Position numbers and translations under genes: made by a program. 64,000 nucleotides of DNA from the NCBI GenBank assembly GCA_020444545.1, contig JAHLKT010000001.1:1-64000 (forward strand). The letters are read 5' to 3'. Positions within the stretch are counted from its first letter, which is position 1; each line of letters starts with the position of its first letter. Below, one piece after another: positions 2,973 through 16,129 of this stretch. The stretch comes from Desulfarculaceae bacterium (lineage in GTDB: Bacteria; Desulfobacterota; Desulfarculia; Desulfarculales; Desulfarculaceae). Below the pieces are notes generated by a model. The model did no database searches. It saw only the letters and a list, made by a program, of their open reading frames with translations, and was not told the origin of the DNA.

Positions 2973-3596
2973 CTACTTGAATTCCTTGTGGCAGGCTTTT
3001 TTCTGGGCGTCCAAGAGGTCGTAGGCCTCCTTGATCGCCGCCGGGTCGCCGCTCTCGCCGGCCACCCGGAGGGCCTGGGCCGCGGCCTCGAACTGGGGAT
3101 ACATGGCCGCGCCTTTGTCCTCGTCCTGGAAGCTGATCATGTGCAGGCAGTTGTCGCAGAACAGCGCGACCTCGGCCGGGCTGACCTGGCCGCCCTCGGC
3201 CAGGGCCTTACCGATCTCCTTGAAGCGCTTGCCCATGAGCTTCTTGAGCTTCTTGTAGGAAGAAGGCTGCTCGCCGGGCTCCAGCACCTCGTCGGCCTGG
3301 TTTTCCTCGGGCGCGGGCTCGCTCACCGACAGCTCGCCGCCTTCCGGGGCCTCGGCGGCCTCGTCCTGGTGGAGAACCTCCTGGGTGGAGACCTTGAACT
3401 GCACCTTCACCGAGGTCTTGCCCTTTTTGGTCTTGAGCTCTTCCTTGACCTTGATCAGGCCCTCGAACTCCATCTCCTCGTTGCTCACCTGGATGGAGCC
3501 GTCCTCCAGCTGGTCGGCCAGACGGCGCAGATACTCCACCGCTTCCTCGCGGCTAAAGGCGTGCTTGGCCTTTTTCTTGTTGGGATCGTTCGGCAT
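2973..3596 (-). CDS. GAK system XXXCH protein
   Basis: 207 aa, cytoplasmic (no signal peptide). The N-terminal third (about 14-75) has the amphipathic layout of the amphi-Trp family; the middle is acidic and Glu-rich; the C-terminal about 90 residues are helical and end in KKACHKEFK. This ending copies the CxxCHxxF/K haem-binding end of cytochrome c' except that the first Cys is replaced, which is the feature behind the family name XXXCH. A second Cys pair and His occur in CDNCLH about 60 residues earlier. It is the promoter-distal gene of the GAK operon, 11 nt after the amphi-Trp gene at 3608-4066. The function is unknown; a haem role is not demonstrated. Confidence 0.8.
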   Translation of the reverse strand: MPNDPNKKKAKHAFSREEAVEYLRRLADQLEDGSIQVSNEEMEFEGLIKVKEELKTKKGKTSVKVQFKVSTQEVLHQDEAAEAPEGGELSVSEPAPEENQADEVLEPGEQPSSYKKLKKLMGKRFKEIGKALAEGGQVSPAEVALFCDNCLHMISFQDEDKGAAMYPQFEAAAQALRVAGESGDPAAIKEAYDLLDAQKKACHKEFK

Positions 3597-3607
3597 GTCT
3601 CATACCC

Positions 3608-4066
3608 TCACTTGGTTTTGGCGCTTGCGGCCTTTTTGCGGGTGCTTTTCTTGGCAGCGGCCCTCTTGGGCGAGGCGGCTCGTTTGGTTTTGGGCGCGGC
3701 GGTCTTTGGGGCCGCGGCGGGCTTGGCGGCCTTGGGAGCCGCAGGCTCCCGGGCCGGCGCGGCGGGCGCGGGAGACGGCTCCGGGGCCGGGGGCTCGCTG
3801 CTGATGACCATGGCGGGCACGGCCCCCTCGCCGCGTTGCAGGTCTTTCCAGCTCAGCTCCAGGGACAGGCGGTTCTTGCCCTTTTTTTGCGAGGCGCTGA
3901 GGCTCAGCTCCAGGGGCGCGCCGGAATCCAAGGTCAGGCTCACGTGCTCCCCGCCCACTTGCAGGCACACCGAGCCGGCCTTGAGCTTCCGCACCAAGTC
4001 CTCCAAATGGCCCAGGGCCTGGGAGGCGCCGAGGCCCGCCTTGTAGGAGATTTCATTCTTGCCCAT
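3608..4066 (-). CDS. Amphi-Trp domain protein with Lys/Ala/Pro histone-H1-like tail
   Basis: 152 aa. Residues about 1-85 resemble the amphi-Trp domain: a helical start, then alternating hydrophobic/basic strands ending in LSLELSWKD. The rest (about 100-152) is almost only Ala, Lys, Pro, Ser and Thr, with AAKP, PKTAAPK and AAKKSTRKK-type segments like bacterial histone H1-like proteins, which suggests contact with nucleic acid or another polyanion. It follows the CofD-like gene after 103 nt and precedes the XXXCH gene. The function is unknown. The tail is clearly visible; the domain name rests on resemblance and on the GAK neighbourhood. Confidence 0.7.
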   Translation of the reverse strand: MGKNEISYKAGLGASQALGHLEDLVRKLKAGSVCLQVGGEHVSLTLDSGAPLELSLSASQKKGKNRLSLELSWKDLQRGEGAVPAMVISSEPPAPEPSPAPAAPAREPAAPKAAKPAAAPKTAAPKTKRAASPKRAAAKKSTRKKAASAKTK

Positions 4067-4169
4067 GCGCTTGTCCTTGCTTGGAGATTGACACCGCTAT
4101 TGCTTCGGCCTGCCTCCCGCGCCCCTAGCCGGTATCGGGCGCGGCGCGGGGCCGCCGGTTATGGCGCGG

Positions 4170-5363
4170 TCACACCAAAGAGGCCAACACTCCGGCCAGG
4201 GCCTCGGGGTCCAGGCGCTCCGGGTCTTGCGGGTTCACCAAGGGGGCGTCCACCAGCCGCACGCCCAGGGCCTCGACCGCCTCGGCATCCACCCCGCCGG
4301 GGTACACGCCTTGGTCCCGGTCCACCAGCACGTAATGCAACAGCTCGCCCGCCGGGATGTCTTGCCCCTGGCGCAGGTAACGCAGCAGCTCGGCGGTCTG
4401 GAAGGCCACGCTGGGCTCAACCACCTCGGGGTCGCGCCCGGTGCTGGGCACATAGACCTTGGGGCAGGCGTTGGCCGAGATGGCCTCGCGCACCCCGGCG
4501 GGCAGCAGGTTGGCCACCAGGCTGGAGTAGAAGCTGCCCATGGGGTAGCAGATCAGCTCGGCCTGCTCGATGAGGCCGCGCACCTTGTCCCGGATCAGGG
4601 GAGCCTCCACCGGGCTGCCGTCGCTGCCGCTCAAGTAAAGCTCGCGGATGGGCGAGGCCAGCGGAGGCACCTCGCGGCCGGTGAGCAGATGCTGGCCCAC
4701 CACCAGGGAGCCGTCGGCCAGGCGAGCGGCCAGTTGCAGATCCTGGCTGACCACCGGGCGCACCGTGCCCCGCACCAGGGCCAGCTTGGAGAACATGTAG
4801 ATCACCGGGTCAAGATGACGGCCCTGATTGAGGTAGCCGCCCACCAGCACCAGATTGCCCAGGCTGGCCCCGCGCAGGTCGAAGTCTTCGGGCAGGGCCT
4901 CGGCCGCGAAACCCAGGTGGCTGCGCACGATCTTGCGCATGGGGTCGGGGATGTCGGCCACCAGGGGGTCGGAGCCCTCCACCAGGGCGGTCAGCTTGCG
5001 GCGCAGCTCCTCCGGCGAGGCGCCCTTGTCCAGGCGGGTGGCGAACAGCCGCCCCACCTCGGGGTTGCCCCACACCGTGCGGTCGGCCAAGGCCATCATG
5101 CGGTTGCGAAGATCGCCCACCGCCGGCATGTTGAAGGCCTTGCGCAGGGTGGCCGAGGAACCGCCCGAGTCAAAGGGCGTGATCAGATGGGTGCTGTTAT
5201 GGGTGTAGCGCACCAGCACCCGGCACAGGGGGCCCAGCGCGCTGCCTCCGCTGAAGAACAGGATGTTGGGCCCCAGCTCCGGGGCGCGCTCCAAACGGGC
5301 CAGCTTGCGAGGGTCGGGCAGGGGCACCCGGCGGGTGACGTGGATGGCCTTGTCGCGGGTCAC
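4170..5363 (-). CDS. GAK system CofD-like protein
   Basis: 397 aa. It has the CofD/YvcK Rossmann-like fold signature: an N-terminal FFSGGSALGPL loop (near 32-45), then HLITPFDSGGSSATLRKAF, GDLRNRM and a later IRELYLSG and CYPMGSFYSSL block. CofD itself is the 2-phospho-L-lactate transferase of F420 synthesis; YvcK relatives bind nucleotide sugars. This member belongs to the separate GAK subfamily, recognised mainly by its neighbours, an HprK-like kinase and an ATP-grasp enzyme, with which it shares a 4-nt ATGA overlap at 5360-5363. No F420 biosynthesis genes are nearby, so a transferase acting on an unknown phosphorylated or nucleotide-activated substrate is the cautious reading. Confidence 0.88.
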   Translation of the reverse strand: MTRDKAIHVTRRVPLPDPRKLARLERAPELGPNILFFSGGSALGPLCRVLVRYTHNSTHLITPFDSGGSSATLRKAFNMPAVGDLRNRMMALADRTVWGNPEVGRLFATRLDKGASPEELRRKLTALVEGSDPLVADIPDPMRKIVRSHLGFAAEALPEDFDLRGASLGNLVLVGGYLNQGRHLDPVIYMFSKLALVRGTVRPVVSQDLQLAARLADGSLVVGQHLLTGREVPPLASPIRELYLSGSDGSPVEAPLIRDKVRGLIEQAELICYPMGSFYSSLVANLLPAGVREAISANACPKVYVPSTGRDPEVVEPSVAFQTAELLRYLRQGQDIPAGELLHYVLVDRDQGVYPGGVDAEAVEALGVRLVDAPLVNPQDPERLDPEALAGVLASLV

Positions 5364-6439
5364 GCCGTCTCACCCAGGGCGTCGTAGAGCCGCGAGGCCG
5401 CGCCCAGGAAGTCCACCCCGCCGCCGAGCTCGTAGACTCTCACTCCGCTCAGGGCCTCCAGATAGGCCCGGTCCGAGTGGTCTGGCTCGTTGCCATTGCT
5501 CAGGAAGAACAGGCCCCAGTCTTTTTTAAAAGCGGCCAGCAGGTCGGGCCGCGCGGCCAGGTCGACCAGGCGCATATCCAGGGGCCCGCCCTCGCGTTGC
5601 CAGTTGAGCAGGGCTAGGGCGTCCAGGGGGCCGCTGAGCTTGAAGCGGTCCGGGCCGAAGCACTCGGCCACATTCACGTCGTACTTGTGCTCCAAATCCC
5701 AGATCTCGCTGCCGGTCAGCTCGGCGAACTGCTCCCGCTCGCTCACCGGGATCACACCGGTCAGGTCGGGGTTGTTCAGGGCGGTGCCCGGATTGATGCG
5801 GGGCAGCTTGGGCACTCCGGTCATCCGCGCCCTGCCCTCCCGGCGGCGCACCAGCAGGCGATCGTTGGAGATGAAGGTGGCGCCTAGGCTCATCAGGTGC
5901 AGGGCCAGGGTGGACTTGCCCATGCCCGAGAAACCGGCCAGCCCCAGGCCGCCGCCCCCCGGGCGGCACACCCCGGCGGCGTGGGCCAACAGGGCGCCCT
6001 GGTCCAGCTCCAGCTGGATCATGCGGCTGTTGATGAAGTTGACCACCTGGTTGCTGTTGGCCAGGCAGGGCCCCACCGCCAGATGCACCTCCTTGCCAAA
6101 GGCGAAGATCATGCCGGTGAGGCGTTTCCTGACCACCCGGCCGTCGGCCAGATCGGCCCATTCTTCCTTGATCTTCTTCTTGCCCGGGTCGGGCTGCTTT
6201 TGCTGCAAGGCCAGGCCGGTGTCTAGGGGCGCGGTCTCCAGGGCGGTGATGCACAAGGCTCCCTGCGCCACCGGGGCCACGAAGGGGCCGAAATAGTCCT
6301 TGAGCTCCTCGATCAGGGCGAGGCTGTTGCTTGCCACCCGCATCTCCCAGCCGGCCAGGGACAGGCCCAGGTCATGCTCCGGGGGAAGCTCGTCGCTCAG
6401 GCGGGTGGCCATCTCGGCCACGCTGCGAAAGAGGCTCAT
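5360..6439 (-). CDS. HprK-related kinase B (GAK system)
   Basis: 359 aa. A Walker A loop GFSGMGKSTLALHL lies near residue 170, followed by ATFISNDRLLVRR, the equivalent of the HPr-kinase metal/phosphate-binding region; the N-terminal about 150 residues are family-specific. HprK phosphorylates a Ser of HPr, but no HPr gene is present here, and PEP-carboxykinase-fold relatives act on other small molecules and proteins. Overlaps of 4 nt with both the CofD-like gene and the ATP-grasp gene indicate translational coupling and equal dosage. The substrate is unknown; a GAK-encoded protein such as an amphi-Trp or XXXCH product is possible but unproven. Confidence 0.88.
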   Translation of the reverse strand: MSLFRSVAEMATRLSDELPPEHDLGLSLAGWEMRVASNSLALIEELKDYFGPFVAPVAQGALCITALETAPLDTGLALQQKQPDPGKKKIKEEWADLADGRVVRKRLTGMIFAFGKEVHLAVGPCLANSNQVVNFINSRMIQLELDQGALLAHAAGVCRPGGGGLGLAGFSGMGKSTLALHLMSLGATFISNDRLLVRRREGRARMTGVPKLPRINPGTALNNPDLTGVIPVSEREQFAELTGSEIWDLEHKYDVNVAECFGPDRFKLSGPLDALALLNWQREGGPLDMRLVDLAARPDLLAAFKKDWGLFFLSNGNEPDHSDRAYLEALSGVRVYELGGGVDFLGAASRLYDALGETA

Positions 6440-7338
6440 GCGCCCAGCTCCTTGCCGATGTGATCGGCGTAGGCCGCAGCCGCGTCGATGCCGCAGCCCT
6501 CCAAGAGGCCCCGGAAGCCGCCGAAGGCCGATACCTCAAAGACCACCGGGCCATCGGCGGTTTCGGCCACGTCCACGCTGGTGAAATCCAGGCCGAAGAT
6601 TGCCTGGGCCTTGCTCGCCATCTCGATCACCGCCGGTTCGGGCTGGTAGGCGGCGTAGCGGCCTCCGGCGCGGTGGGTGGTGTTCCAGGAGTCGCGGCTG
6701 CCCACCCGGGCGTAGGTGGCCAGATACTCGCCGCCCAGGAAGACCAGGCCCAGGTCCTGGCCCGGCAGCTCCAGGCGCTTCTGGGCGTAGATGATCTGGT
6801 TGCCCGAGGCCTTGAAGTTGGCCAGGTCCTCGCGCACCCCGTTGGCCGGGTCGATGAGCGCCATGCCCCGCGCCTTGGAGGTGTAGAGCGGCTTGAGCAC
6901 GCTGGGGCCGAAGCCCTCGATGGCCCGGGCCGCCTGCTCCACGTCCTCGGTGACCACGGTGGGCGGCAGGGGGATGCCCGCCGCGGCCAGGCTGACCGTG
7001 CAGGTGAGGCGGTTGAGCACCGCGATGATCTTGGAGGGCCGGGAGAAGATGCGCACCCCCTGGGCCTCGATGAAGCGCAGCAGCTCCAGGCGGTCCAGAA
7101 GCTCCGGGCTGTAGGCCGGGCCCACCTTTTTGACCGCCAGGCCGTCCAGGGCGGTGAGCTCCACGTCCTGGCACCAGGCCTTGCCGGTGCTCAGGTCGCA
7201 GGAGACCTGGCCCAAATCCACCAGCAGGCGAAAGCCGGTGCGCTCGGCCAGGGCGTCGGCCAGACGTTCGCTGGACCAGCCTCCGGGCAACCCCACCACC
7301 GCGATTTTCAACTGTGCCGTCACTGCCGTCATCCTCAT
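6436..7338 (-). CDS. GAK system ATP-grasp enzyme
   Basis: 300 aa. The C-terminal two thirds show the ATP-grasp arrangement: a VLKPLYTSKARGM loop (near 150-162), GQDLGLVFLGGEYLATYAR strand region, and an FDFTSVDVAETADGPVVFEVSAFGGF metal site region where D and E residues would hold the two magnesium ions. It is closest in style to RimK-like glutamate ligases. Such enzymes couple ATP to an acyl-phosphate and then an amide or ester. It overlaps the HprK-like gene by 4 nt and starts 14 nt after the PhoU-phosphotransferase fusion. The substrate is unknown. Confidence 0.88.
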   Translation of the reverse strand: MRMTAVTAQLKIAVVGLPGGWSSERLADALAERTGFRLLVDLGQVSCDLSTGKAWCQDVELTALDGLAVKKVGPAYSPELLDRLELLRFIEAQGVRIFSRPSKIIAVLNRLTCTVSLAAAGIPLPPTVVTEDVEQAARAIEGFGPSVLKPLYTSKARGMALIDPANGVREDLANFKASGNQIIYAQKRLELPGQDLGLVFLGGEYLATYARVGSRDSWNTTHRAGGRYAAYQPEPAVIEMASKAQAIFGLDFTSVDVAETADGPVVFEVSAFGGFRGLLEGCGIDAAAAYADHIGKELGA

Positions 7339-7352
7339 GGCTTGAGGTTAGC

Positions 7353-8993
7353 TTAGTAGATCAGGGCCTTTTCCGGGTAGCGGAACTCGGCCCAGGGTTG
7401 CCCTTGGTGCTGCAAGAGCTTTTCCATCAAGTATACCGAGCGCAGGAACATGTCCCGCGCGAAACGGCGGTTCATCTCGAAGCGGGTGGAGCTGAACAGG
7501 CTGCGGGCCAGGCCCAGGGTCAGGCGGGCCTGGAAGGTCTCGTCGCCGGTGAGCTGGGCGAACTTGCGGGCGAAGCGCAAGAAGGCTTCGATGGCGGCCT
7601 CCACCCGGGCGCGCATTTCGCGCTGGAAAACCGGCAGCCGGAAATTGGAGACCAAAAACACCGACACGTCTTGCGCGTAGTCGGTCTCCCGGGAGCGGTG
7701 CAGGTCGATGAAGTGAATGCGCTCCTGGTCGCCGCTGTAGATGATGTTGTTCAAATTCAAATCGCCGTGAATGAGCACCGAAAAGGGCGCGATCAGGCCT
7801 TCGGTGGCCTCTTCCAACATGCCCAGCCGGCTGCCGAAGGAGTGCAGGGGCAAATCCCCGATGCCCAGCTGCCCGGTGTCTAGCTCCGGGTGCATGCGAA
7901 ACACCGCGTCCTGGCGGCGTCTCAGTTGGCCCACGAAGTCGGCGGACACCGGCTCCGGCTTGCGGGTCACGCTCCAGGCGTGACCCAGGGTCTCCTCCAA
8001 AAGGAACAGAGCGTTGCCCAGGTCTTCCTCCTGGGCGTTGAGCACCATGTCCTGCAAGGTGCAGCCGGTGAGGTACTCCATGAGCACCGAGGCGTTGCCC
8101 TCGCCGTCGGGCTGGAACTCCCATATCTTGGGGGGCAGGCCGGGGATGATCTTGTCCCAGCGCTCGGTGTTCTCCTTCTCGCTGGATAGCTTGGCCAGGT
8201 TGCCGTGCTTGAACAGCACCGGCCGGGCCGCTTCCTCGCTGGGCTTGCGGGTCACGCCGATGCGGCAGCCAGAGCGGGTGCCCCAGATGGACTCGAACTC
8301 CACCTGGGAGATGGGCGGCTTTTCCCCGCTGGCCCCCAGGCCGTCGGTGAGGGCGCGGTACTGATGAATCTTCATCTTCTCGCCCATCACCGAGAACAGG
8401 ATGGCCTCGCCGATGTTCAACAGGCTGTCGCCCATGCGCTCCAGGTAGTTGGAGATGAACAGGGCGGTGACCAGGTCGCCGGGCTCGCCGCCGTCGCGCA
8501 GCTCGCTCAGCACCCTGGCGAAGCGCTCCTGGTGCAAGTTGTCCAGGTTGAACTCGCACTGGCAGATGCGGAAGGCCAGGCTGGCGTCGTGGCGCTCCAC
8601 CGCGCGCACGATGTGGCTCAGGCCCGAGAGCACCTCCTGGAACATCTCCTCGAAACCGAAGCCCCCCACAAAGGACGCCACCGAGAGGTGGTTCATCTGG
8701 CGGGGGATGTTCACCGCGAAGTCGGCCATGCGCTCCAGGTTGCTGGTGATGGTGTTCATGGAGCGAAGTAGGGCCACCTGCTGCTTGCTCATGCCCTGGG
8801 GGGTCATGAGCAGGGTGAAGGTCTTTTCCTCGATAAGGCTCTTGAGGGTGTCGATGTAGTCGTCGCCCGAGGCGATCTTGTCCATGCCCCGGTGGGAGGG
8901 GGCTTGCAGGAACTTCAGGGTCTGCTCCACCTGGGAGGTGACCGCGCTGACCATGAAGCGGAAGTTTTCCCTGAGCTCGTCCAGTGTGCTCAT
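7353..8993 (-). CDS. PhoU-domain / aminoglycoside-phosphotransferase-like fusion protein
   Basis: 546 aa. Residues about 1-215 are two helical PhoU repeats (SLIEEKTFTLLMTPQG, LRSMNTITSNLERMADFAVNI; later SNYLERMGDSLLNIGE), the pattern that binds metal-phosphate in PhoU. After a linker, residues about 250-520 form a choline-kinase/APH-type fold with the Brenner motif HGDLNLNN near residue 400 and the downstream IHFIDLHRSRETD metal site, preceded by a CTLQDMVL hinge. A PhoU sensor joined to a small-molecule kinase is unusual. It lies within the GAK operon, 14 nt upstream of the ATP-grasp gene. The kinase substrate is unknown, and phosphate sensing is inferred from the family. Confidence 0.82.
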   Translation of the reverse strand: MSTLDELRENFRFMVSAVTSQVEQTLKFLQAPSHRGMDKIASGDDYIDTLKSLIEEKTFTLLMTPQGMSKQQVALLRSMNTITSNLERMADFAVNIPRQMNHLSVASFVGGFGFEEMFQEVLSGLSHIVRAVERHDASLAFRICQCEFNLDNLHQERFARVLSELRDGGEPGDLVTALFISNYLERMGDSLLNIGEAILFSVMGEKMKIHQYRALTDGLGASGEKPPISQVEFESIWGTRSGCRIGVTRKPSEEAARPVLFKHGNLAKLSSEKENTERWDKIIPGLPPKIWEFQPDGEGNASVLMEYLTGCTLQDMVLNAQEEDLGNALFLLEETLGHAWSVTRKPEPVSADFVGQLRRRQDAVFRMHPELDTGQLGIGDLPLHSFGSRLGMLEEATEGLIAPFSVLIHGDLNLNNIIYSGDQERIHFIDLHRSRETDYAQDVSVFLVSNFRLPVFQREMRARVEAAIEAFLRFARKFAQLTGDETFQARLTLGLARSLFSSTRFEMNRRFARDMFLRSVYLMEKLLQHQGQPWAEFRYPEKALIY

Positions 8994-9023
8994 CAGGCCG
9001 GATTTCCGCGGCCGCCTCGGCGG

Positions 9024-9311
9024 CTACTTGCTTTGATAGGTTTCAATGAGCAGAGGCTGCCCGCCCTCTTCGGTGGCGGGCTCCTCCTCGTTCCAGCGGA
9101 ATTTGAGGGTCAGCTTGATGCCCTCGCCCTTGCGCTTGGCCTCCACCTCCAGGTTCACCAGGCCCTGGGGCTTGAGCACCAGGCGCTTGCCGTTGGTGGA
9201 AAAGACCAGGGCCCCGCTTTGGAAGCCGTCTTTCAGCGCGGCGAGGTAGCGGACGATGGACTGCGGGTCCTGCATGGACTGGTGCTTGAATCGCCCCATC
9301 TGCTCGGACAT
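9024..9311 (-). CDS. Amphi-Trp domain-containing protein
   Basis: 95 aa, the usual length of a stand-alone amphi-Trp protein. A helical N-terminus (SMQDPQSIVRYLAALKDGFQSG) is followed by beta strands with VNLEVEAKRKGEGIKLTLKFRWNEEE, the amphipathic strand with terminal Trp for which the family is named. It is the second gene of the GAK operon, 30 nt upstream of the PhoU fusion. The function of amphi-Trp proteins is unknown; they recur with GAK ATP-grasp and kinase genes. Confidence 0.8.
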   Translation of the reverse strand: MSEQMGRFKHQSMQDPQSIVRYLAALKDGFQSGALVFSTNGKRLVLKPQGLVNLEVEAKRKGEGIKLTLKFRWNEEEPATEEGGQPLLIETYQSK

Positions 9312-9344
9312 GACGAATGCCTTCTCCCGTGCGCCGCCCGGCGG

Positions 9345-10526
9345 CTATGCCAGGCGCTCGCGGTATTGTTCGATTACTTGCTCGCGGCTGGCCCCGGCCA
9401 GGCTGAGGCTCTTGCTGATGGCCAGCTCGTCCCAGGCGGGTTGCAGGCCCACCTCGCGTTCCAGCTTGGCGCGCTCCACCCGCGCCGGTTCCTTGATCTT
9501 CACCGACAGGTGGGTGTCGTCGCCCATGAAGATGAGCAGCTCGCGGCCATTCAAACAGCCTTCGCGGTTCTTGCGGGTCAGGGCGCCGATGAGAAACTCG
9601 GTGTACTCGCGGGACTGGGGGTTCCACACCTCGTAGCCGTCCACGTCGTAGTCGGCCAACAGGATGGGCCAGAACTGCTCGGGATGGGGGATGACCACCC
9701 CGCCGCCCAGGGAGCGGGTTTCCTCGATCACCTCCGAGGCCCGGTAGAAGTAGTCCAGGGAGAACTTGCTCTTCACGATCTTCTTGACCGCGCTGAGCAG
9801 CAGCAACGCCCGGCGCGGGTTGATGGCCGGGTGCTGGAGACTCATGGCCTCGACATACTCGCTAAGGAGCTTGTTCTTGATCATGGCCGGCGGGGTGCGG
9901 TCCTCGTAAAGCTCCATGAGCTTGCCCAGGCGTGCGGTGCAAAAGCGCACGAAGGCCACCACCTCGGGCCCGGCCCCGGTCTCCACCACCGCCTCTTCCA
10001 GGTCTCCCTCGTAGGCAGGGTCGACGATGGTGTCCATGAACTGGAACAGCTGGCTGGAGCGGTATTTGAAGGTGTGGGCCAGCATGGAGGAAAGCACCCC
10101 GGCGTCCTTCAGCTTGGCGGCGCTCAAATGCAGCAGAAGCTGCACCTTGCGCTGGAAGCCCGAGGAGTAGCAGTCGATCTCCGCCCCGGCGAACCCGCCC
10201 CAGGTGAGCAGCTGGTTGTGCTGGGTGGGGATGATCAGGCTGGTCTCAGCATTGGGGAACATGGCCTCCACCCGCCCGGCGATGAGCTCCATGGGTATCC
10301 ACTCGGGATGCCAGTGGATGGCCAGGAGCTCCTTCTGGCGGGGATACACCGCGCTGGGCGTGAGCACCATTTCGCGCTGCTCGGGGCTCAGCTCGATGTC
10401 CACGATGGACAGGTAGGTCCGCTCGTCCTCTTCGCTGATATCCCGGGTGGCTTTGTCCAGGTCCCAAGCTGTCAAATCGGGCGGAGCCGGGGCGCAGGAG
10501 GTCAGGATGGGCTTGTTGTCGGACAT
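9345..10526 (-). CDS. PHP-superfamily-like metal-dependent protein, first gene of the GAK operon
   Basis: 393 aa. Several pieces recall PHP (polymerase and histidinol phosphatase) hydrolases in the right order: LLAIHWHPEW (near 68), VVIPHPEQFWP (near 285), DVDGYEVWNPQS (near 302) and FMGDDTHLSVK (near 340), corresponding to the His, His, Glu/Asn and Asp-x-His metal ligands. This assignment is by eye and needs a profile search. The start ATG lies at 10526 with no other credible start nearby. As the promoter-proximal gene of the cluster it may belong to the same function: a phosphoesterase acting on the product of the HprK-like or APH-like kinase would fit, but this is inference. Confidence 0.55.
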   Translation of the reverse strand: MSDNKPILTSCAPAPPDLTAWDLDKATRDISEEDERTYLSIVDIELSPEQREMVLTPSAVYPRQKELLAIHWHPEWIPMELIAGRVEAMFPNAETSLIIPTQHNQLLTWGGFAGAEIDCYSSGFQRKVQLLLHLSAAKLKDAGVLSSMLAHTFKYRSSQLFQFMDTIVDPAYEGDLEEAVVETGAGPEVVAFVRFCTARLGKLMELYEDRTPPAMIKNKLLSEYVEAMSLQHPAINPRRALLLLSAVKKIVKSKFSLDYFYRASEVIEETRSLGGGVVIPHPEQFWPILLADYDVDGYEVWNPQSREYTEFLIGALTRKNREGCLNGRELLIFMGDDTHLSVKIKEPARVERAKLEREVGLQPAWDELAISKSLSLAGASREQVIEQYRERLA

Positions 10527-10849: not shown

Positions 10850-11758
10850 TTATTCGCCCACGGCGCCGGGCTCTCTCATAACCGGGGCGTTCTCGTGGGC
10901 CGCGCTGAAGGGCTTGCCCTCCAAGAAGCGCCCCAGGAGCAACAACCCCATGAAGCGCTCCGGGTCCTCGGCCAACAGGGCGGGCATCTCGGCCAGGCTG
11001 CCGCGCAGCACCCGCTGGCGCTCCAGGTCTCCGGCCCAATAGACCACCGCGCAGGGCAGGTCCGGAGCCAGGTAGTCCGAAAGCACCTCGAACAAGTGGG
11101 GCGCGTCGGCCAGGGCCATATAGAAAATGGCGCTGTGCTCCTGCCCGGCCAGGAGTTTCAGCAGCTCCCGGGCCGCCTGGTCAGGCTCGGCCAGGCTCAT
11201 GTCCGGGGCCAGGCCGTGGCCGGTGAGCACAAAGGGCGCGGCCTGGATGAGAAAGCGGGCGTCGTGGGCGGGCAGGATGCTGGCCTTGAGCGCGGCCAGG
11301 GCCGCGGCGTCGGCCCCCAGGCCGGGGATGACGATCACCTCCTGGGGTTTGCACTTCTCGGCGTAGGAGTGGCCCGGCCCGAAGAGGCAGGGATTGCCGA
11401 ATTCCAAGAGGCCCACATCCAGGCCCCGGTCCAGCATTTCCTGCACCTGTTCAACATGGGCCGTGAACTTGGCCTGGCGGTTGGCCCGGAACAGGGGCAG
11501 ATCCTCCGGGCTCAGGGTGGCGAAGTGCTTGCCCTCGTAATCCCAGAAGCCTTCCCAGGGGTCGAAAGCGATTGTGGTGTCGCCGATGTAGTCCGCGAAC
11601 AGACGGGCCTGGCGGGCCGGAGCCAGTATCACGTCCATGCGCTCCATGACCTCCAGGGCCTGCAAGGTGGCAGTGGCCGGTCCGCCGGGACCGCAGCCGA
11701 TCAGATAGAAAAAGCCGTGATGAAAATTGGGCGTGGCGTTTCCGGCCTGGCCGGGCAT
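10850..11758 (-). CDS. Tetrapyrrole (corrin/porphyrin) methylase family protein
   Basis: 302 aa. It starts with the family signature YLIGCGPGGP (18-27), the SAM-site loop of CysG/CobA-type methylases, and continues with LLEFGNPCLFGPGHSY and VIVIPGLGADAAALAAL, equivalents of the GDP-x-x-G and PG-x-S-S loops. Known members methylate precorrins, uroporphyrinogen, or (in RsmI) rRNA. It is the last gene of an uptake operon with TonB receptor, ABC transporter and FmdE gene. The substrate may be the imported molecule or a tetrapyrrole made from it; no other corrin biosynthesis gene is in the window, so I do not assign a CobX step. Confidence 0.82.
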   Translation of the reverse strand: MPGQAGNATPNFHHGFFYLIGCGPGGPATATLQALEVMERMDVILAPARQARLFADYIGDTTIAFDPWEGFWDYEGKHFATLSPEDLPLFRANRQAKFTAHVEQVQEMLDRGLDVGLLEFGNPCLFGPGHSYAEKCKPQEVIVIPGLGADAAALAALKASILPAHDARFLIQAAPFVLTGHGLAPDMSLAEPDQAARELLKLLAGQEHSAIFYMALADAPHLFEVLSDYLAPDLPCAVVYWAGDLERQRVLRGSLAEMPALLAEDPERFMGLLLLGRFLEGKPFSAAHENAPVMREPGAVGE

Positions 11759-11830
11759 GAGGCTGCTCCCTCCCCGCCGGGGCGGGGCGCAAAGATGATC
11801 GATCCGGGGGCGAAGCCGCGCGAAAGGGGC

Positions 11831-12436
11831 CTAGCCCTTGCCCTCGTAGCAGGGGATGCACAGGGTGCGCCCCTCCAGGCGGCGGGTGCGCGACTCCATC
11901 ACCGCCTCGCCGCACTCCTCGCACTTGAGGCTGGCCAGCAGGCGGGCCTGATGGGGCATGGGCACCATGGGCTCCTTGACCTCGAACAGCTCGCCCAGCG
12001 GCGCGTCCATGATGTCGCTGCTGCGCTCCTCTCGCAGGGCCATGAGGCGCTTCTTGTCCTCCGGGCTGATTACGCCCTGGGCCAGTTGCTGGTTGAGCTT
12101 GGTGAACTCCGACTCCGGGCCGCCCAGGCGGCCGGCGTCGAAGACCAGGCGCACCCCGGAACCGTCGCTGCGGCGGTAGAAGGTGAAGGCCAGCTTGCCG
12201 TTGTCGATGAACTTGAGGTTGCCCTTGCCGAAGGTGCAGCCGGTGAGCGCCTGGATGGCGTCCACCGCGCACATGTCGGTCTCCACCAGGGCCACGATCT
12301 CCTCGTCCTCGGCGCGGCCCATCTCGTTGACCACGTACTCGCCGGCCCTAAGGCCGATGGCCAGGCCCGGGCACCAGTGGCCGTGGAAGTCGATGGCGCG
12401 TTCTACCTGCGCGGGGGTCAGTTGGCATTCAGCCAT
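11831..12436 (-). CDS. FmdE family protein with C-terminal zinc ribbon
   Basis: 201 aa. The FmdE fold is shown by H18-G-H20-W-C22-PG and VETDMCAVDAIQALTGCTFGKGNL, with His and Cys residues placed to bind metal. The last about 40 residues are a DksA/TraR-type zinc ribbon (KCEECGEA...LCIPCYEG). FmdE is named after the formylmethanofuran dehydrogenase operon, but it is not part of that enzyme's core and is widespread in anaerobes next to iron or molybdate transport genes. Here it lies in the TonB/ABC operon between a methyltransferase and a tetrapyrrole methylase, suggesting handling of the imported metal or cofactor. The exact reaction is unknown. Confidence 0.87.
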   Translation of the reverse strand: MAECQLTPAQVERAIDFHGHWCPGLAIGLRAGEYVVNEMGRAEDEEIVALVETDMCAVDAIQALTGCTFGKGNLKFIDNGKLAFTFYRRSDGSGVRLVFDAGRLGGPESEFTKLNQQLAQGVISPEDKKRLMALREERSSDIMDAPLGELFEVKEPMVPMPHQARLLASLKCEECGEAVMESRTRRLEGRTLCIPCYEGKG

Positions 12437-12472
12437 GGGATCATCTCCGATGGTTGGTATTGGATTGCATGT

Positions 12473-13099
12473 TTATGAGGCCGTTTGGGGGGCGGGCCGA
12501 CGAGCCTTGACCAGGTAGCCCAACTCGTCGTCCAAGAGGGTCTCCACCACCAGGCCGGCCGCGCTCATCATGGCGCGCATCTCGTCGTCCGGGGGCAGCA
12601 TGTCCCGCTCCACCACGGTGCCCGCCTTGCGGTGGGTGTCGTTGATAAAGGCCTTGGGCATGAAGTGCACCACCAGGAGCACCCCGCCCGGCTTGAGCAG
12701 CCAGGCCAGGCGCTCCAGGGCGGCGGGTTGGTCGTCGAAGTGGGGGAAGACCTGGTGGCAGATCACGCGGTGGTAGCTCTGAGGCTCGGCGGGCAGCTCC
12801 TCCACCGCGGCCCGCTCCACCCGCACCCAGGACATGCCCGCAACCCGCCGGCGGCAGACATCCACCATGCCCTGGCTGATGTCCAGAGCCAGCAGGCGGC
12901 CGCCCGGCCCCACCACCGAGGCCAGCTCGGCGGTGAGGCGTCCGGTGCCGCAGCCCGGCTCCAGCACCGCCTGGCCCGGACCCAGTTCCCCGGACGCCAG
13001 CAAACGGGCCAGCTTGGGGCGCTCAGTCTCGCCGTATTCGATGGCGGCCCAGTCGGCCTCCACCTGGGCGTCGAAGAACTCGGCCTTATCCTGGTTCAT
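12473..13099 (-). CDS. Class I SAM-dependent methyltransferase (UbiE/Methyltransf_11 type)
   Basis: 208 aa. The SAM-binding motif I is VLEPGCGTGRLTAEL (near 45-59), motif post I is LLALDISQGMVDVC, and a VICHQVFPHFDDQPAALERLAWLLKPGG segment gives the usual acidic and Pro-Gly loops. It starts 2 nt after the stop of the substrate-binding protein gene and is followed by the FmdE gene, so it is co-transcribed with the uptake system. Methyltransferases of this kind often accompany siderophore or cofactor uptake genes in anaerobes, but the substrate cannot be deduced. Confidence 0.85.
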   Translation of the reverse strand: MNQDKAEFFDAQVEADWAAIEYGETERPKLARLLASGELGPGQAVLEPGCGTGRLTAELASVVGPGGRLLALDISQGMVDVCRRRVAGMSWVRVERAAVEELPAEPQSYHRVICHQVFPHFDDQPAALERLAWLLKPGGVLLVVHFMPKAFINDTHRKAGTVVERDMLPPDDEMRAMMSAAGLVVETLLDDELGYLVKARRPAPQTAS

Positions 13100-13101
13100 G
13101 A

Positions 13102-14199
13102 CTACTTCTTTTCCATGAAGGACGGTTTGGCCCCCAAGGGACCGTAACGCTTGGCCATGGCCGCGTACACCGGCTTGCCGTTCAGGAAGGCATAGAGCTC
13201 GTCTGCCTTGGAGGCCAGGTCCACGTCCGCGAAGGCCTTCGGCTTGAGCACCTTGCCGATGGCGTAGGCATCGGCAAAGGCGGTGCCCAGGTTGGTGGTG
13301 TACCAGTTGAAGGGGAAGAGCACGTACACCTGGCCGTCCTGGAAGGCGCGCAGGGTCTGGTAATAGCCGGGCTTCTTGGCGTAATCCGCCGCCACCAGGG
13401 TGAGGCCGCCGCCGTCCACGAAGATCACCGGCGGGTTGAGCTTCAAGAGCCTTTCCTTGTCCACCATCAGGTGGCCGCCCTTGGCCAACCCTGCGGCCAG
13501 GTTCTTGGCCCCCAACCAGCGGAAGGGCAGATAGTTGGGGTCCGTGCTCTCCAGGCCGTGCACCCCCTTGAAGCCAATGCCGCCCACGTAGGCCGCCGGG
13601 GCGGGCCCGCCCTGGGCGCCGCGTTGGGCCAGGTCCTTTTGCAGGGCCAGCAGATAGTCCACCACCGCTTGGGCCCGCTGCTGTTTATTTAGCACCTCGC
13701 CGGCCAGCTTCATGGAGTCCAGCACCACCTTGCTGAAAGAGGCGAAGGGGCCGTAGGAGAGCACCACCACCGGAATGTTCAGCAGGCCTTGCAGACGATC
13801 GGCCTTGGCCCTTTCCAGGTAGGTGATGAACACCACCTGGGGCTTGGCCCCCAGCACCCCCTCCAGGTCGGGCAGGTTGTTGATGGCCGCGACCCCGCCC
13901 GGGGTGATGGTGGGCAGCTTGGCCAGCTGCGGTTGGGCGTAGAAATAGGGCCGCCCGCCGGGGAAGCGCTTCTCGAAGCCCTCGATGCCCACCACCTTGT
14001 CCGTGGCTTGCAGATACACGATCAGGCGCAGACAGCCCGGCCCCAGGCACACGATGCGCTCCACCGAGGCGGGCACCGTCACCTTGCGGCCGGTCATGTC
14101 GGTTATGGTCTTGCCCTTGGCCAGGGCGGGCGCGGCGATGAGCAGCAGGCAGGCGGCCAGGGCGGCGGCCAGCAGGCGGTAGGATTTCAAGCGAGTCAT
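13102..14199 (-). CDS. ABC transporter substrate-binding protein (iron chelate/cobalamin class, PF01497)
   Basis: 365 aa from the ATG at 14199; the longer open frame upstream is out-of-gene and belongs to the ATPase region. A Sec signal peptide (positively charged MTRLKSYR, hydrophobic core, AAPALA-K cleavage near 28) leads into ITDMTGRKVTVPASVERIVCLGP, the typical opening of FecB/BtuF-like binding proteins. No lipobox Cys is seen at the signal peptide end, so it is a soluble periplasmic protein. It delivers the ligand to the permease encoded two genes upstream. The Fur-like box upstream of the operon favours an iron complex; cobalamin remains possible. Confidence 0.9.
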   Translation of the reverse strand: MTRLKSYRLLAAALAACLLLIAAPALAKGKTITDMTGRKVTVPASVERIVCLGPGCLRLIVYLQATDKVVGIEGFEKRFPGGRPYFYAQPQLAKLPTITPGGVAAINNLPDLEGVLGAKPQVVFITYLERAKADRLQGLLNIPVVVLSYGPFASFSKVVLDSMKLAGEVLNKQQRAQAVVDYLLALQKDLAQRGAQGGPAPAAYVGGIGFKGVHGLESTDPNYLPFRWLGAKNLAAGLAKGGHLMVDKERLLKLNPPVIFVDGGGLTLVAADYAKKPGYYQTLRAFQDGQVYVLFPFNWYTTNLGTAFADAYAIGKVLKPKAFADVDLASKADELYAFLNGKPVYAAMAKRYGPLGAKPSFMEKK

Positions 14200-14210
14200 C
14201 TTGTTTGCTC

Positions 14211-15026
14211 CTAAGCGTGTCGATGATGGGCCGGGCCCTCGGGCGCCGGGGCGGCGGGGGCGCGGCGGGCCGCGGCTTGGGGTATCACCACCCGCTGGCC
14301 CTGCACCTCGGCCAACACCGCCTCGATGCCGTAGACCTCGCGGATGTGCTTGCCGGTGAGCTCCGGCGGGGTGAGCAGGGCGTGCACCTTGCCTTGCACC
14401 ATGAGCACCAGGCGGTCCATGTAGCGCAGGGCCAGGTTGATGTCGTGCAGGCACACCGCCGCGCCCAGGCCTTGGCGGCGCACCGCGTGCACCAAGAGCT
14501 CCATGACCTCCAACTGGTTGCGCAGGTCCAGGTTGCTGGTGGGCTCGTCCAGGAGCAGCAGGTGCGGCTCCTGGGCCAGGGCCCGGGCGATGACCACCTT
14601 CTGGGCCTCGCCGCCGCTCAGGCTGGCCACGGGCCGGAGCGCCAGATCCTCCAGGCCCATCTGGGTGATCACACCGCTGACCACCTCCAGGTCGTGGGCC
14701 GTGGCGTTCCATTGGATATGGGGCTTGCGGCCCAGGAGCACCGCGTCGAACACGCTGAGCGGTTCGCGCTCCTGACTCTGGGCCACATAGCCGATGAGCC
14801 GGGCAATGGCCTGGCCGCCCAGCTTGGCCAGGTTTTGATCCTCCACCATGACCACCCCTTGGCTGGGGCGCAGGATGCGGTCCAGGCACTTGAGCAGGGT
14901 GGACTTGCCCGCGCCGTTGATGCCCAGGATGCCCACCGTCTCGCCGTGCAGGAGCGAAAGACTAAGGCCCCGGAGCACCTCGCGGCCGTTGTAGCCGAAG
15001 TGCAGGTCTCTGGCTTCCAGGGTCAT
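14211..15026 (-). CDS. ABC transporter ATP-binding protein (FecE/BtuD/FepC type)
   Basis: 271 aa from the ATG at 15026, which overlaps the permease stop by 4 nt. Walker A GINGAGKST (near 36-44), Q-loop VAQSQE, signature LSGGEAQKV, Walker B LLLLDEPTSNLD and H-loop CLHDIN are all present and intact. The C-terminal 40 residues form an Ala/Pro-rich tail ending in HHRH, longer than usual. It energises uptake through the FecCD-type permease. The order permease, ATPase, binding protein is common in iron-complex importers of Desulfobacterota. Confidence 0.95.
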   Translation of the reverse strand: MTLEARDLHFGYNGREVLRGLSLSLLHGETVGILGINGAGKSTLLKCLDRILRPSQGVVMVEDQNLAKLGGQAIARLIGYVAQSQEREPLSVFDAVLLGRKPHIQWNATAHDLEVVSGVITQMGLEDLALRPVASLSGGEAQKVVIARALAQEPHLLLLDEPTSNLDLRNQLEVMELLVHAVRRQGLGAAVCLHDINLALRYMDRLVLMVQGKVHALLTPPELTGKHIREVYGIEAVLAEVQGQRVVIPQAAARRAPAAPAPEGPAHHRHA

Positions 15027-16129
15027 CGCCGGTCCCCTTTCAGCAAGAGATAGAGGAATAGGGGCGCGCCCATGAAGGAGGTGAGCACCCCCACCGGCAG
15101 GCTGCCCGAGCCCACCAGCAAGCGCCCGATGGTGTCGGCCGCGATGAGCAGCAGGGCCCCCACCAGGCCCGAGCAGGGCACCAGAAGGCGGTGGTCCCCG
15201 CCCACCAGGCGGCGGCTGATGTGCGGGGCCAACAGGCCCAAAAAGGCGATGATGCCGTGGAAGGCGGTGGCCAGGGCCACCAGTAGCGAGGCCAGGAGCA
15301 TGCCCACCAGCCTTAGGCTGGTGACGTTCACCCCCAGGCCCGAGGCGGTCTCCTCCCCGGCCAACAGGGCGTTCAGGTCCCAGCGGCGGCGCAGGAAATA
15401 GGCGCTGACCAGCAGGGTGGCCACCCCCAGCAGGCCGATCTCCTGCCAGTTGGAGCGGGCCACGTCGCCGAAGGTCCAGAACACCACCGTGGCGATCTCG
15501 GTCTCGGTGGCGAAGTATTGCACCAGGATGGTGCCGGACATGAACAGCGAGGACATGGCCACCCCGGCCAGGATGACCGACGAGGCGCTCATCTGGCGCA
15601 TACGGGCCAGGAGCAGGATGACCCCGGTGGCCAGCATGGCCCCGGCAAAGGCCATGAGGGTGACCGCGTAGAGGCTGGAGAACATGAACATGCCGGTGTC
15701 CGCGGTGTAGAGCCCGGCGGTGGTCACCTCGCCCGCGCCCATGAACACGATGGCGAATGCCGCGCCGAACATGGCCCCGTGGCTCATGCCCAGGGTGAAG
15801 GGCGAGGCCAATGGGTTGCGCAGCAGGCTCTGGGTCATCAGGCCCGAGAGCCCCAGGCCCCAGCCGGTGACCAGGGCGGCGGTGATGCGCGGCAGGCGGA
15901 TGTTCCACACCACCACGTCGGAAGCGCCCTCCCCCCGGCCCAGGAGGATCATCAGCACCTTGAAGGGCGAGAGATCGTAGGAGCCCACGGCCACCGCTTG
16001 CAGGCCCAACAGCAGCGTGACCGCGGCTAGGGCCGCCAGGAGCAGGTAGCGCCGCCGAAGGCCCGCGCCGTAGCGCTGGGTGAGGCCCGCGGCGGCGGTG
16101 GGGGGCAGGCTGGCGGGGTGGCTCTTCAT
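15023..16129 (-). CDS. FecCD family ABC transporter permease
   Basis: 368 aa with about ten hydrophobic segments, the length and pattern of BtuC/FecCD permeases. Typical conserved pieces are IRLPRITAALVTGWGLGLSGLMTQSLLRNPLASPFTLGMSHGA and the cytoplasmic coupling segment LLAPHISRRLVGGDHRLLVP. It transports the chelate from the periplasmic binding protein into the cytoplasm. It follows the TonB receptor after 66 nt and overlaps the ATPase start by 4 nt. Confidence 0.94.
   Translation of the reverse strand: MKSHPASLPPTAAAGLTQRYGAGLRRRYLLLAALAAVTLLLGLQAVAVGSYDLSPFKVLMILLGRGEGASDVVVWNIRLPRITAALVTGWGLGLSGLMTQSLLRNPLASPFTLGMSHGAMFGAAFAIVFMGAGEVTTAGLYTADTGMFMFSSLYAVTLMAFAGAMLATGVILLLARMRQMSASSVILAGVAMSSLFMSGTILVQYFATETEIATVVFWTFGDVARSNWQEIGLLGVATLLVSAYFLRRRWDLNALLAGEETASGLGVNVTSLRLVGMLLASLLVALATAFHGIIAFLGLLAPHISRRLVGGDHRLLVPCSGLVGALLLIAADTIGRLLVGSGSLPVGVLTSFMGAPLFLYLLLKGDRR

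Follow-up and report, generated by a model that had tools for sequence, protein, structure and literature searches.

An extended GAK operon of a Desulfarculaceae bacterium and its probable place in phosphate homeostasis

What does a GAK (grasp-and-kinase) operon do for the cell that carries it? The question is raised by a locus of a Desulfarculaceae bacterium (GenBank assembly GCA_020444545.1, contig JAHLKT010000001.1), of which positions 1 to 64,000 of the forward strand were analysed; this whole stretch of 64,000 nucleotides is referred to as the window. The GAK families have been delimited by their co-occurrence, with no function found, and in the literature searched no paper was found on the function of amphi-Trp, XXXCH, GAK or the HprK-related kinase. 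On the basis of comparative genomics and prediction, from which all results given here derive, the operon is best explained as a whole as an enlarged GAK module connected with the Pho regulon, a reading to which a probability of about 0.5 is assigned. The linkage to Pho genes, the presence of two further constant enzymes and the exclusion of polyphosphate kinase within one large family turn GAK into a specific and testable claim.

The operon comprises eight tightly packed genes on the minus strand, reaching from position 10526 to 2973, and all of their open reading frames were located where the initial annotation had placed them. In operon order, they encode a PHP-like protein, a first amphi-Trp protein, a PhoU-APH fusion, the GAK ATP-grasp protein, the HprK-related kinase B, the GAK CofD-like protein, a second amphi-Trp protein and a protein with an amphi-Trp and an XXXCH domain. 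The intergenic gaps, counted from the PHP-like gene on, are 33, 30, 14, -4, -4, 103 and 11 nucleotides, which bears out the proposed coupling of the central trio: 4-nucleotide overlaps join the ATP-grasp to the HprK-like gene and the HprK-like to the CofD-like gene. The profile search likewise upheld the family assignments, as all five GAK families exceed their NCBIfam cut-offs in the window (TIGR04356, 300; TIGR04355, 200; TIGR04357, 340; TIGR04358, 40; TIGR04354, 31 bits) and the ATP-grasp, HprK-B and CofD-like genes are adjacent.

Whether the PHP-like and PhoU-APH genes belong to this system was decided by its distribution. Gene order was examined in 80 loci and 56 further regions, and membership was counted near those 78 loci with a GAK ATP-grasp gene (GRASP in the locus orders given below) that had enough flank, a few of which represent one genome taken twice. 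PhoU-APH and amphi-Trp were each found at 75/78 of these loci, HprK at 74/78, PHP at 70/78, the YvcK-like CofD gene at 68/78 and XXXCH at 55/78, the usual order being XXXCH-PHP-amphiTrp-PhoUAPH-GRASP-HprK-CofD-amphiTrp. The core genes are thus conserved together, and the system idea of the initial annotation survives this check. As PHP and PhoU-APH are as constant beside GRASP as the named GAK families, they are core GAK members beyond the NCBIfam set. Loci with the PHP/PhoU-APH core occur in Desulfobacterota and on contigs labelled Nitrospirae, Zixiibacteriota, Lambdaproteobacteria and Geothermincola. PHP was found in 16/16 GAK genomes checked, and in two genomes checked in which it does not adjoin GRASP, one of which we take to be D. 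magneticus and the other a relative, it is present elsewhere.

That both genes are mere chance neighbours of the trio could be argued from the few genomes in which the halves of the system stand apart (L119 and L122, where PHP and PhoU-APH occur without the GAK trio, and L124 with L125). Absence of the two genes beside GAK in relatives was looked for; their presence at 70 and 75 of the 78 loci, spread over several phyla, and the occurrence of PHP in every GAK genome checked refute this explanation, which is hardly tenable any more. Compared to the NCBIfam system (TIGR04354-TIGR04358), the module shares all five families above curated cut-offs and differs by the constant PHP and PhoU-APH, the fusion of amphi-Trp to XXXCH and the linkage to the Pho regulon. 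Apart from this, divergent PHP genes lacking an accompanying GAK trio were noticed at L119-L122, adjoining a metallo-beta-lactamase family gene at L120 and probably at L121, the latter locus also featuring a bactofilin.

GAK is operon-linked to the Pho regulon in several lineages, though not at the window's own locus. The genes are arranged as pstS-pstC-pstA-pstB-phoU-XXXCH-PHP-amphiTrp-PhoUAPH-GRASP-HprK-CofD-mgtE at L055 and phoB-phoR-pstB-phoU-XXXCH-PHP-amphiTrp-PhoUAPH-GRASP-HprK-CofD in Desulfovibrio gigas (L165), where about 900 bases of the locus are masked and where phoB and phoR fall short of the curated cut-offs for PhoB/PhoR, yet have those families among their best matches. The same phoB-phoR-pstB-phoU-GAK genes as in D. 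gigas were found at L168, L182 and L186, and nearly the same order, phoB-pstB-phoU-GAK, at L036. A PiT transporter adjoins GAK at L166, L171, L177 and L188, while L130 carries pstSCAB-phoU-CofD-mgtE, with the rest of GAK not there. Altogether, phosphate-uptake genes lie in 14/93 deduplicated GAK loci (L130 included) and in 0/40 control windows, which were chosen arbitrarily, have a greater mean length and stem from at least 16 genomes of the same kind. GAK is probably part of phosphate homeostasis. The initial annotation had guessed at phosphate chemistry, rightly in our judgement, whereas the link to pst, phoU, phoBR, PiT and mgtE itself, like the exclusion with ppk described below, had escaped it.

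The neighbourhood of uptake genes could equally be read as signalling only: a PhoU-APH complex would tune Pst/PiT uptake or PhoR by phosphorylation, and no reserve compound would exist. The PhoU domain, the co-operonic pstB-phoU and phoBR genes and the PiT neighbours fit such a role. However, signalling of this kind has no need for an ATP-grasp protein, a PHP enzyme and a sugar-nucleotide enzyme, all of which feature invariant residues of catalytic type, and a plain phoU already stands beside GAK in the same operons, so that this alternative is considered unlikely. Compared to the classical Pst-PhoU/PhoBR regulon, GAK has pstB-phoU and phoBR as operon partners across several lineages and shares a PhoU domain through PhoU-APH, but this PhoU is fused to a kinase and the other GAK parts have no classical counterpart.

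A second line of evidence concerns polyphosphate kinase. Among 199 Desulfovibrionaceae genomes, the GAK ATP-grasp gene occurs in 98 and ppk1 in 38, and both together in 0 (Fisher p 1e-13 if ancestry is ignored, 0.014 on a genus basis). Even within a single genus (g218), some genomes carry GAK and some ppk, and none both. Likewise, PPK2 was detected in none of 16 GAK genomes tested, D. gigas included. A role in phosphate storage is proposed for GAK as for PPK1/PPK2; unlike these, the GAK operon has no PPK domain, and in no Desulfovibrionaceae genome was it found alongside ppk1. Given the constant phosphate enzymes, the location in Pho operons and the missing co-occurrence with ppk, GAK probably provides another route by which phosphate is stored or handled.

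D. gigas combines these features, as it carries GAK within a Pho cluster and has neither ppk1 nor PPK2, and its granules reportedly yielded alpha-glucose pentakis(diphosphate), which Hensgens et al. are said to have described in 1996. GAK is common in many Desulfovibrionaceae for which, to our knowledge, there are no reports of granules; the granules of D. gigas are therefore a lead, not proof. The species, with a chromosome of 3,693,899 bp (PMC4287179), was reported to form localized intracellular 'polyphosphate', as worded in the title of Jones and Chambers (1975) cited in PMC9239181. Phosphorus-rich granules and mutant fitness data are also on record for D. alaskensis G20 (PMC5193443), a strain not matched to any surveyed genome.

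How far do the proteins themselves agree with a function in phosphate metabolism? The PhoU-APH gene (7353-8993) encodes both domains in one protein (PhoU PF01895, 78 bits; APH PF01636, 32 bits), and the call of a fusion thereby holds. Its PhoU part matches the PhoU entry 1xwm in the PDB (E 4e-13) and keeps both motifs, NLERxxD and YLERxGD, while in the APH part HGDLNLNN (HGDxNxxN) and the downstream IDL are invariant at key positions among 42 homologues. With 96 bits against the PhoU equivalog TIGR02135, below the cut-off of 130, the protein is, by profile comparison, a paralogue in fused form rather than PhoU proper. The second kinase, HprK-related kinase B (5360-6439; TIGR04355, 474 bits), features an intact P-loop as well as SNDR and KxPRxNPGT signatures which are invariant in 36 homologues. 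A type of HprK-B with lower scores, about 350 bits, was seen adjoining PhoU-APH at L124, L126 and L127, with neither ATP-grasp nor CofD at the locus in L124 and L126.

The GAK ATP-grasp protein (6436-7338; TIGR04356, 431 bits) has LysX/RimK as nearest relatives (LysX E 2e-17). When it was compared to RimK-type glutamate ligases, the conserved DIR and EVN positions were not kept; instead, DLG and EVS are found, which are invariant at key positions in 44 homologues. This replacement is family-wide, so the protein probably uses an acceptor other than the customary one.

The PHP-like protein (9345-10526) has no match in Pfam, NCBIfam or PDB sequences. Its AlphaFold2 model (predicted local distance difference test score, pLDDT, 91) gave convincing Foldseek matches only to RNase AM (9etk, E 4e-4) and to a putative PHP phosphoesterase represented by the entries 3e0f and 3o0f, each match having a probability of 1.0, E-values of 4e-4 to 2e-3 and modest TM-scores of 0.36-0.55. 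Among 42 homologues, the motifs HWHPE, TQHN, PHPEQFWP, EVWNPQS and GDDxH vary little or not at all, and HxH ... H ... HP ... D.H is the pattern of metal-ligand motifs in the PHP superfamily. The predicted fold and these motifs uphold the earlier call despite the missing profile match, and we take the protein to be a divergent PHP enzyme, for which a metal-dependent phosphoesterase activity is predicted. It resembles RNase AM and the PHP phosphoesterases in predicted fold and metal-ligand-type motifs, and differs from them by an extra helical insert, an additional C-terminal part and the lack of sequence-profile similarity. In two genomes, PHP matches (G046:C113 and G130:C131) contain in-frame TGA or TAG codons, as does a CofD match on the first of these contigs (G046:C113).

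The GAK CofD-like protein (4170-5363; TIGR04357, 514 bits) had been called a CofD-like transferase. The family assignment stands, but the nearest PDB relatives are YvcK and not CofD/FbiA: sequence matches in the PDB are restricted to the YvcK family (best 2ppv, E 2e-21), next to a Pfam CofD domain of 122 bits. In this family, the equivalent of GlmR D40 (D65) is invariant, that of GlmR N198 (N284) is mostly kept and GlmR D41 is replaced by an invariant Ser66. YvcK binds UDP-glucose and UDP-GlcNAc (PMC5482804). GlmR is a uridyltransferase, the enzyme being impaired by D40A, D41A and N198A (PMC10128056). Judged by these comparisons, the GAK protein is closer to YvcK/GlmR than to CofD. It shares with the YvcK/GlmR family (UPF0052) the best PDB matches and the D40/N198 equivalents, and is set apart by Ser66 and by a separate NCBIfam family, TIGR04357.

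This placement also bears on the idea that GAK is a pathway for a cofactor of the F420/tetrahydromethanopterin type, in which a CofD-like transferase and an MptN/CofF-like glutamate ligase would cooperate. Such a pathway is suggested by the ATP-grasp protein scoring best, among NCBIfam models that carry a functional name, against MptN (128 bits) and by the Pfam CofD score given above. It is very improbable, since the CofD-like protein is YvcK-like and matches that family only among PDB sequences; moreover, true MptN-like genes lie in a tetrahydromethanopterin-type operon of two genomes (G208 and G252) that seems separate by eye, and other F420 genes are not in the loci. Weak GRASP matches in these two genomes were rejected as GAK.

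In gut Desulfovibrio (L102-L114, L134), a solo CofD-like gene was observed between 3'-5' exonuclease and RluA-like genes; it lies upstream of DUF47-PiT phosphate transport genes, one gene away. Six genomes of genus g71 with such a solo gene all carry ppk.

The remaining members of the operon are small proteins of the amphi-Trp and XXXCH families. Amphi-Trp protein 1 (9024-9311; TIGR04354, 70 bits) shows invariant F8, S12, D15 and W73 in an alignment of 32 sequences, and an hxI[SG]S tail is conserved at the end of many amphi-Trp copies. The last gene (2973-3596; TIGR04354, 35 bits; TIGR04358, 56 bits) bears an N-terminal amphi-Trp domain, overlooked so far, in front of its XXXCH domain, so that the operon contains three amphi-Trp proteins; beyond these and the single XXXCH domain, the genome yielded no others of either kind. 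A search of the amphi-Trp profile against the PDB gave only weak matches to fatty-acid-binding proteins (E 0.008), which were put down to chance, and a haloarchaea-style amphi-Trp consensus was not found in plasmids by tblastn.

While the XXXCH family call proved right, the fold had to be corrected, as this domain matches cytochrome c' in Pfam (PF01322, 3.7e-6), in a PDB profile comparison (4e-4) and in Foldseek (2j9b, 6.6e-4, probability 1.0). The C-terminal His203 is invariant, Met121 in helix 1 and Cys202 are nearly so, and the proteins end in a conserved CHxxYK; a CxxCH motif is not formed, as its first Cys is absent. The domain is thus predicted to be a cytochrome c'-like four-helix bundle behind the third amphi-Trp domain, with putative heme binding. 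It is like cytochrome c' and cytochrome b562 in its bundle fold, the C-terminal His and the Met in helix 1, an arrangement of His and Met that recalls cytochrome b562 in particular. It is unlike them in lacking the first Cys of CxxCH and in that no export signal was noticed by eye.

Amphi-Trp protein 2 (3608-4066; TIGR04354, 45 bits) does have the Lys/Ala-rich, H1-like tail that had been described, yet among the homologues examined this tail is limited to the window and its closest relative, L035, and was rejected as a feature of the system; elsewhere the tails are mostly acidic or absent and highly variable. One homologue (L080:11192-12139) bears a long His-rich tail resembling metal-binding sequences.

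The constancy of these small proteins, which equals that of the enzymes in the 78-locus survey, allows them to be seen as substrates. The HprK-like kinase and/or PhoU-APH would then phosphorylate amphi-Trp/XXXCH proteins, as HprK acts on HPr/Crh, the ATP-grasp protein would add residues and PHP would dephosphorylate. The invariant Ser12 of amphi-Trp 1 and the relationship of the ATP-grasp protein to protein or amino-acid ligases are in line with this, and the conservation of hxI[SG]S and CHxxYK at the termini keeps protein modification alive as an explanation. Nevertheless, CHxxYK equally resembles helix 4 of cytochrome c', the tails of amphi-Trp 2 are highly variable, the ATP-grasp protein has other residues in place of the ligases' DIR and EVN, and the exclusion of ppk would be left unexplained. 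Modification of the small proteins therefore has a low probability, of the same order as signalling only.

The assignment to the Pho regulon, taken together with the fusion of PhoU to a kinase, a second kinase, an ATP-grasp protein, a probable sugar-nucleotide enzyme, a phosphoesterase and the absence of ppk, leads to the proposal, about evenly balanced, that GAK both assembles and takes apart a phosphorylated compound, probably based on a sugar, which acts as a phosphate reserve or signal. Within PhoU-APH, the PhoU domain would sense the phosphate status, the task that PhoU has at the Pst transporter. With plentiful phosphate, the APH and HprK-like kinases, the ATP-grasp protein and the YvcK-like enzyme might jointly make a small molecule with many phosphate groups, its backbone probably being a sugar, from which the PHP enzyme could release phosphate again when needed. 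The amphi-Trp proteins, including the XXXCH fusion, may act as a scaffold or granule coat and perhaps contribute a heme or redox input. A much more specific and rather doubtful version regards GAK as the ppk-independent phosphate storage of sulfate reducers, making a sugar polyphosphate such as alpha-glucose pentakis(diphosphate) in granules coated by amphi-Trp/XXXCH. If true, a GAK reserve would explain the phosphate granules reported for D. gigas, a species with neither ppk1 nor PPK2, and would add a new way in which phosphorus is stored inside cells in anoxic sediments.

Several observations weigh against a reserve or signal under Pho control. The majority of the GAK loci (79/93), the window included, are without a phosphate-uptake gene within reach, and a search of the window with the E. 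coli consensus gave no Pho box above chance. Phylum-wide, the 20 GAK and 31 ppk carriers among 297 genomes show an overlap of 0, which is not significant (p 0.24), and as many ppk carriers appear host-associated, the exclusion may be driven by lifestyle. Furthermore, the nearest relatives of the ATP-grasp protein join amino acids, and HprK is absent from about 10 loci of Desulfonatrono- or alkaliphile type.

As regards the borders of the operon, no sigma-70 promoter was found for it, while a strong intrinsic-terminator-like hairpin of 14 pairs with a T-rich tail (2947-2916, minus strand) lies directly past the last gene. Upstream, the minus strand carries tetrapyrrole methylase-like, zinc-finger FmdE and methyltransferase-like genes and an iron/metal-type ABC transporter set (10850-16129); the tetrapyrrole methylase and FmdE were considered as GAK members and excluded because the first survey showed them at no further locus. 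On the opposite side, the plus strand (305-2894) carries two genes heading toward the operon terminator, one corrinoid-protein-like and B12-binding, the other a large gene of the ferredoxin-like activator kind that by eye resembles RamA.

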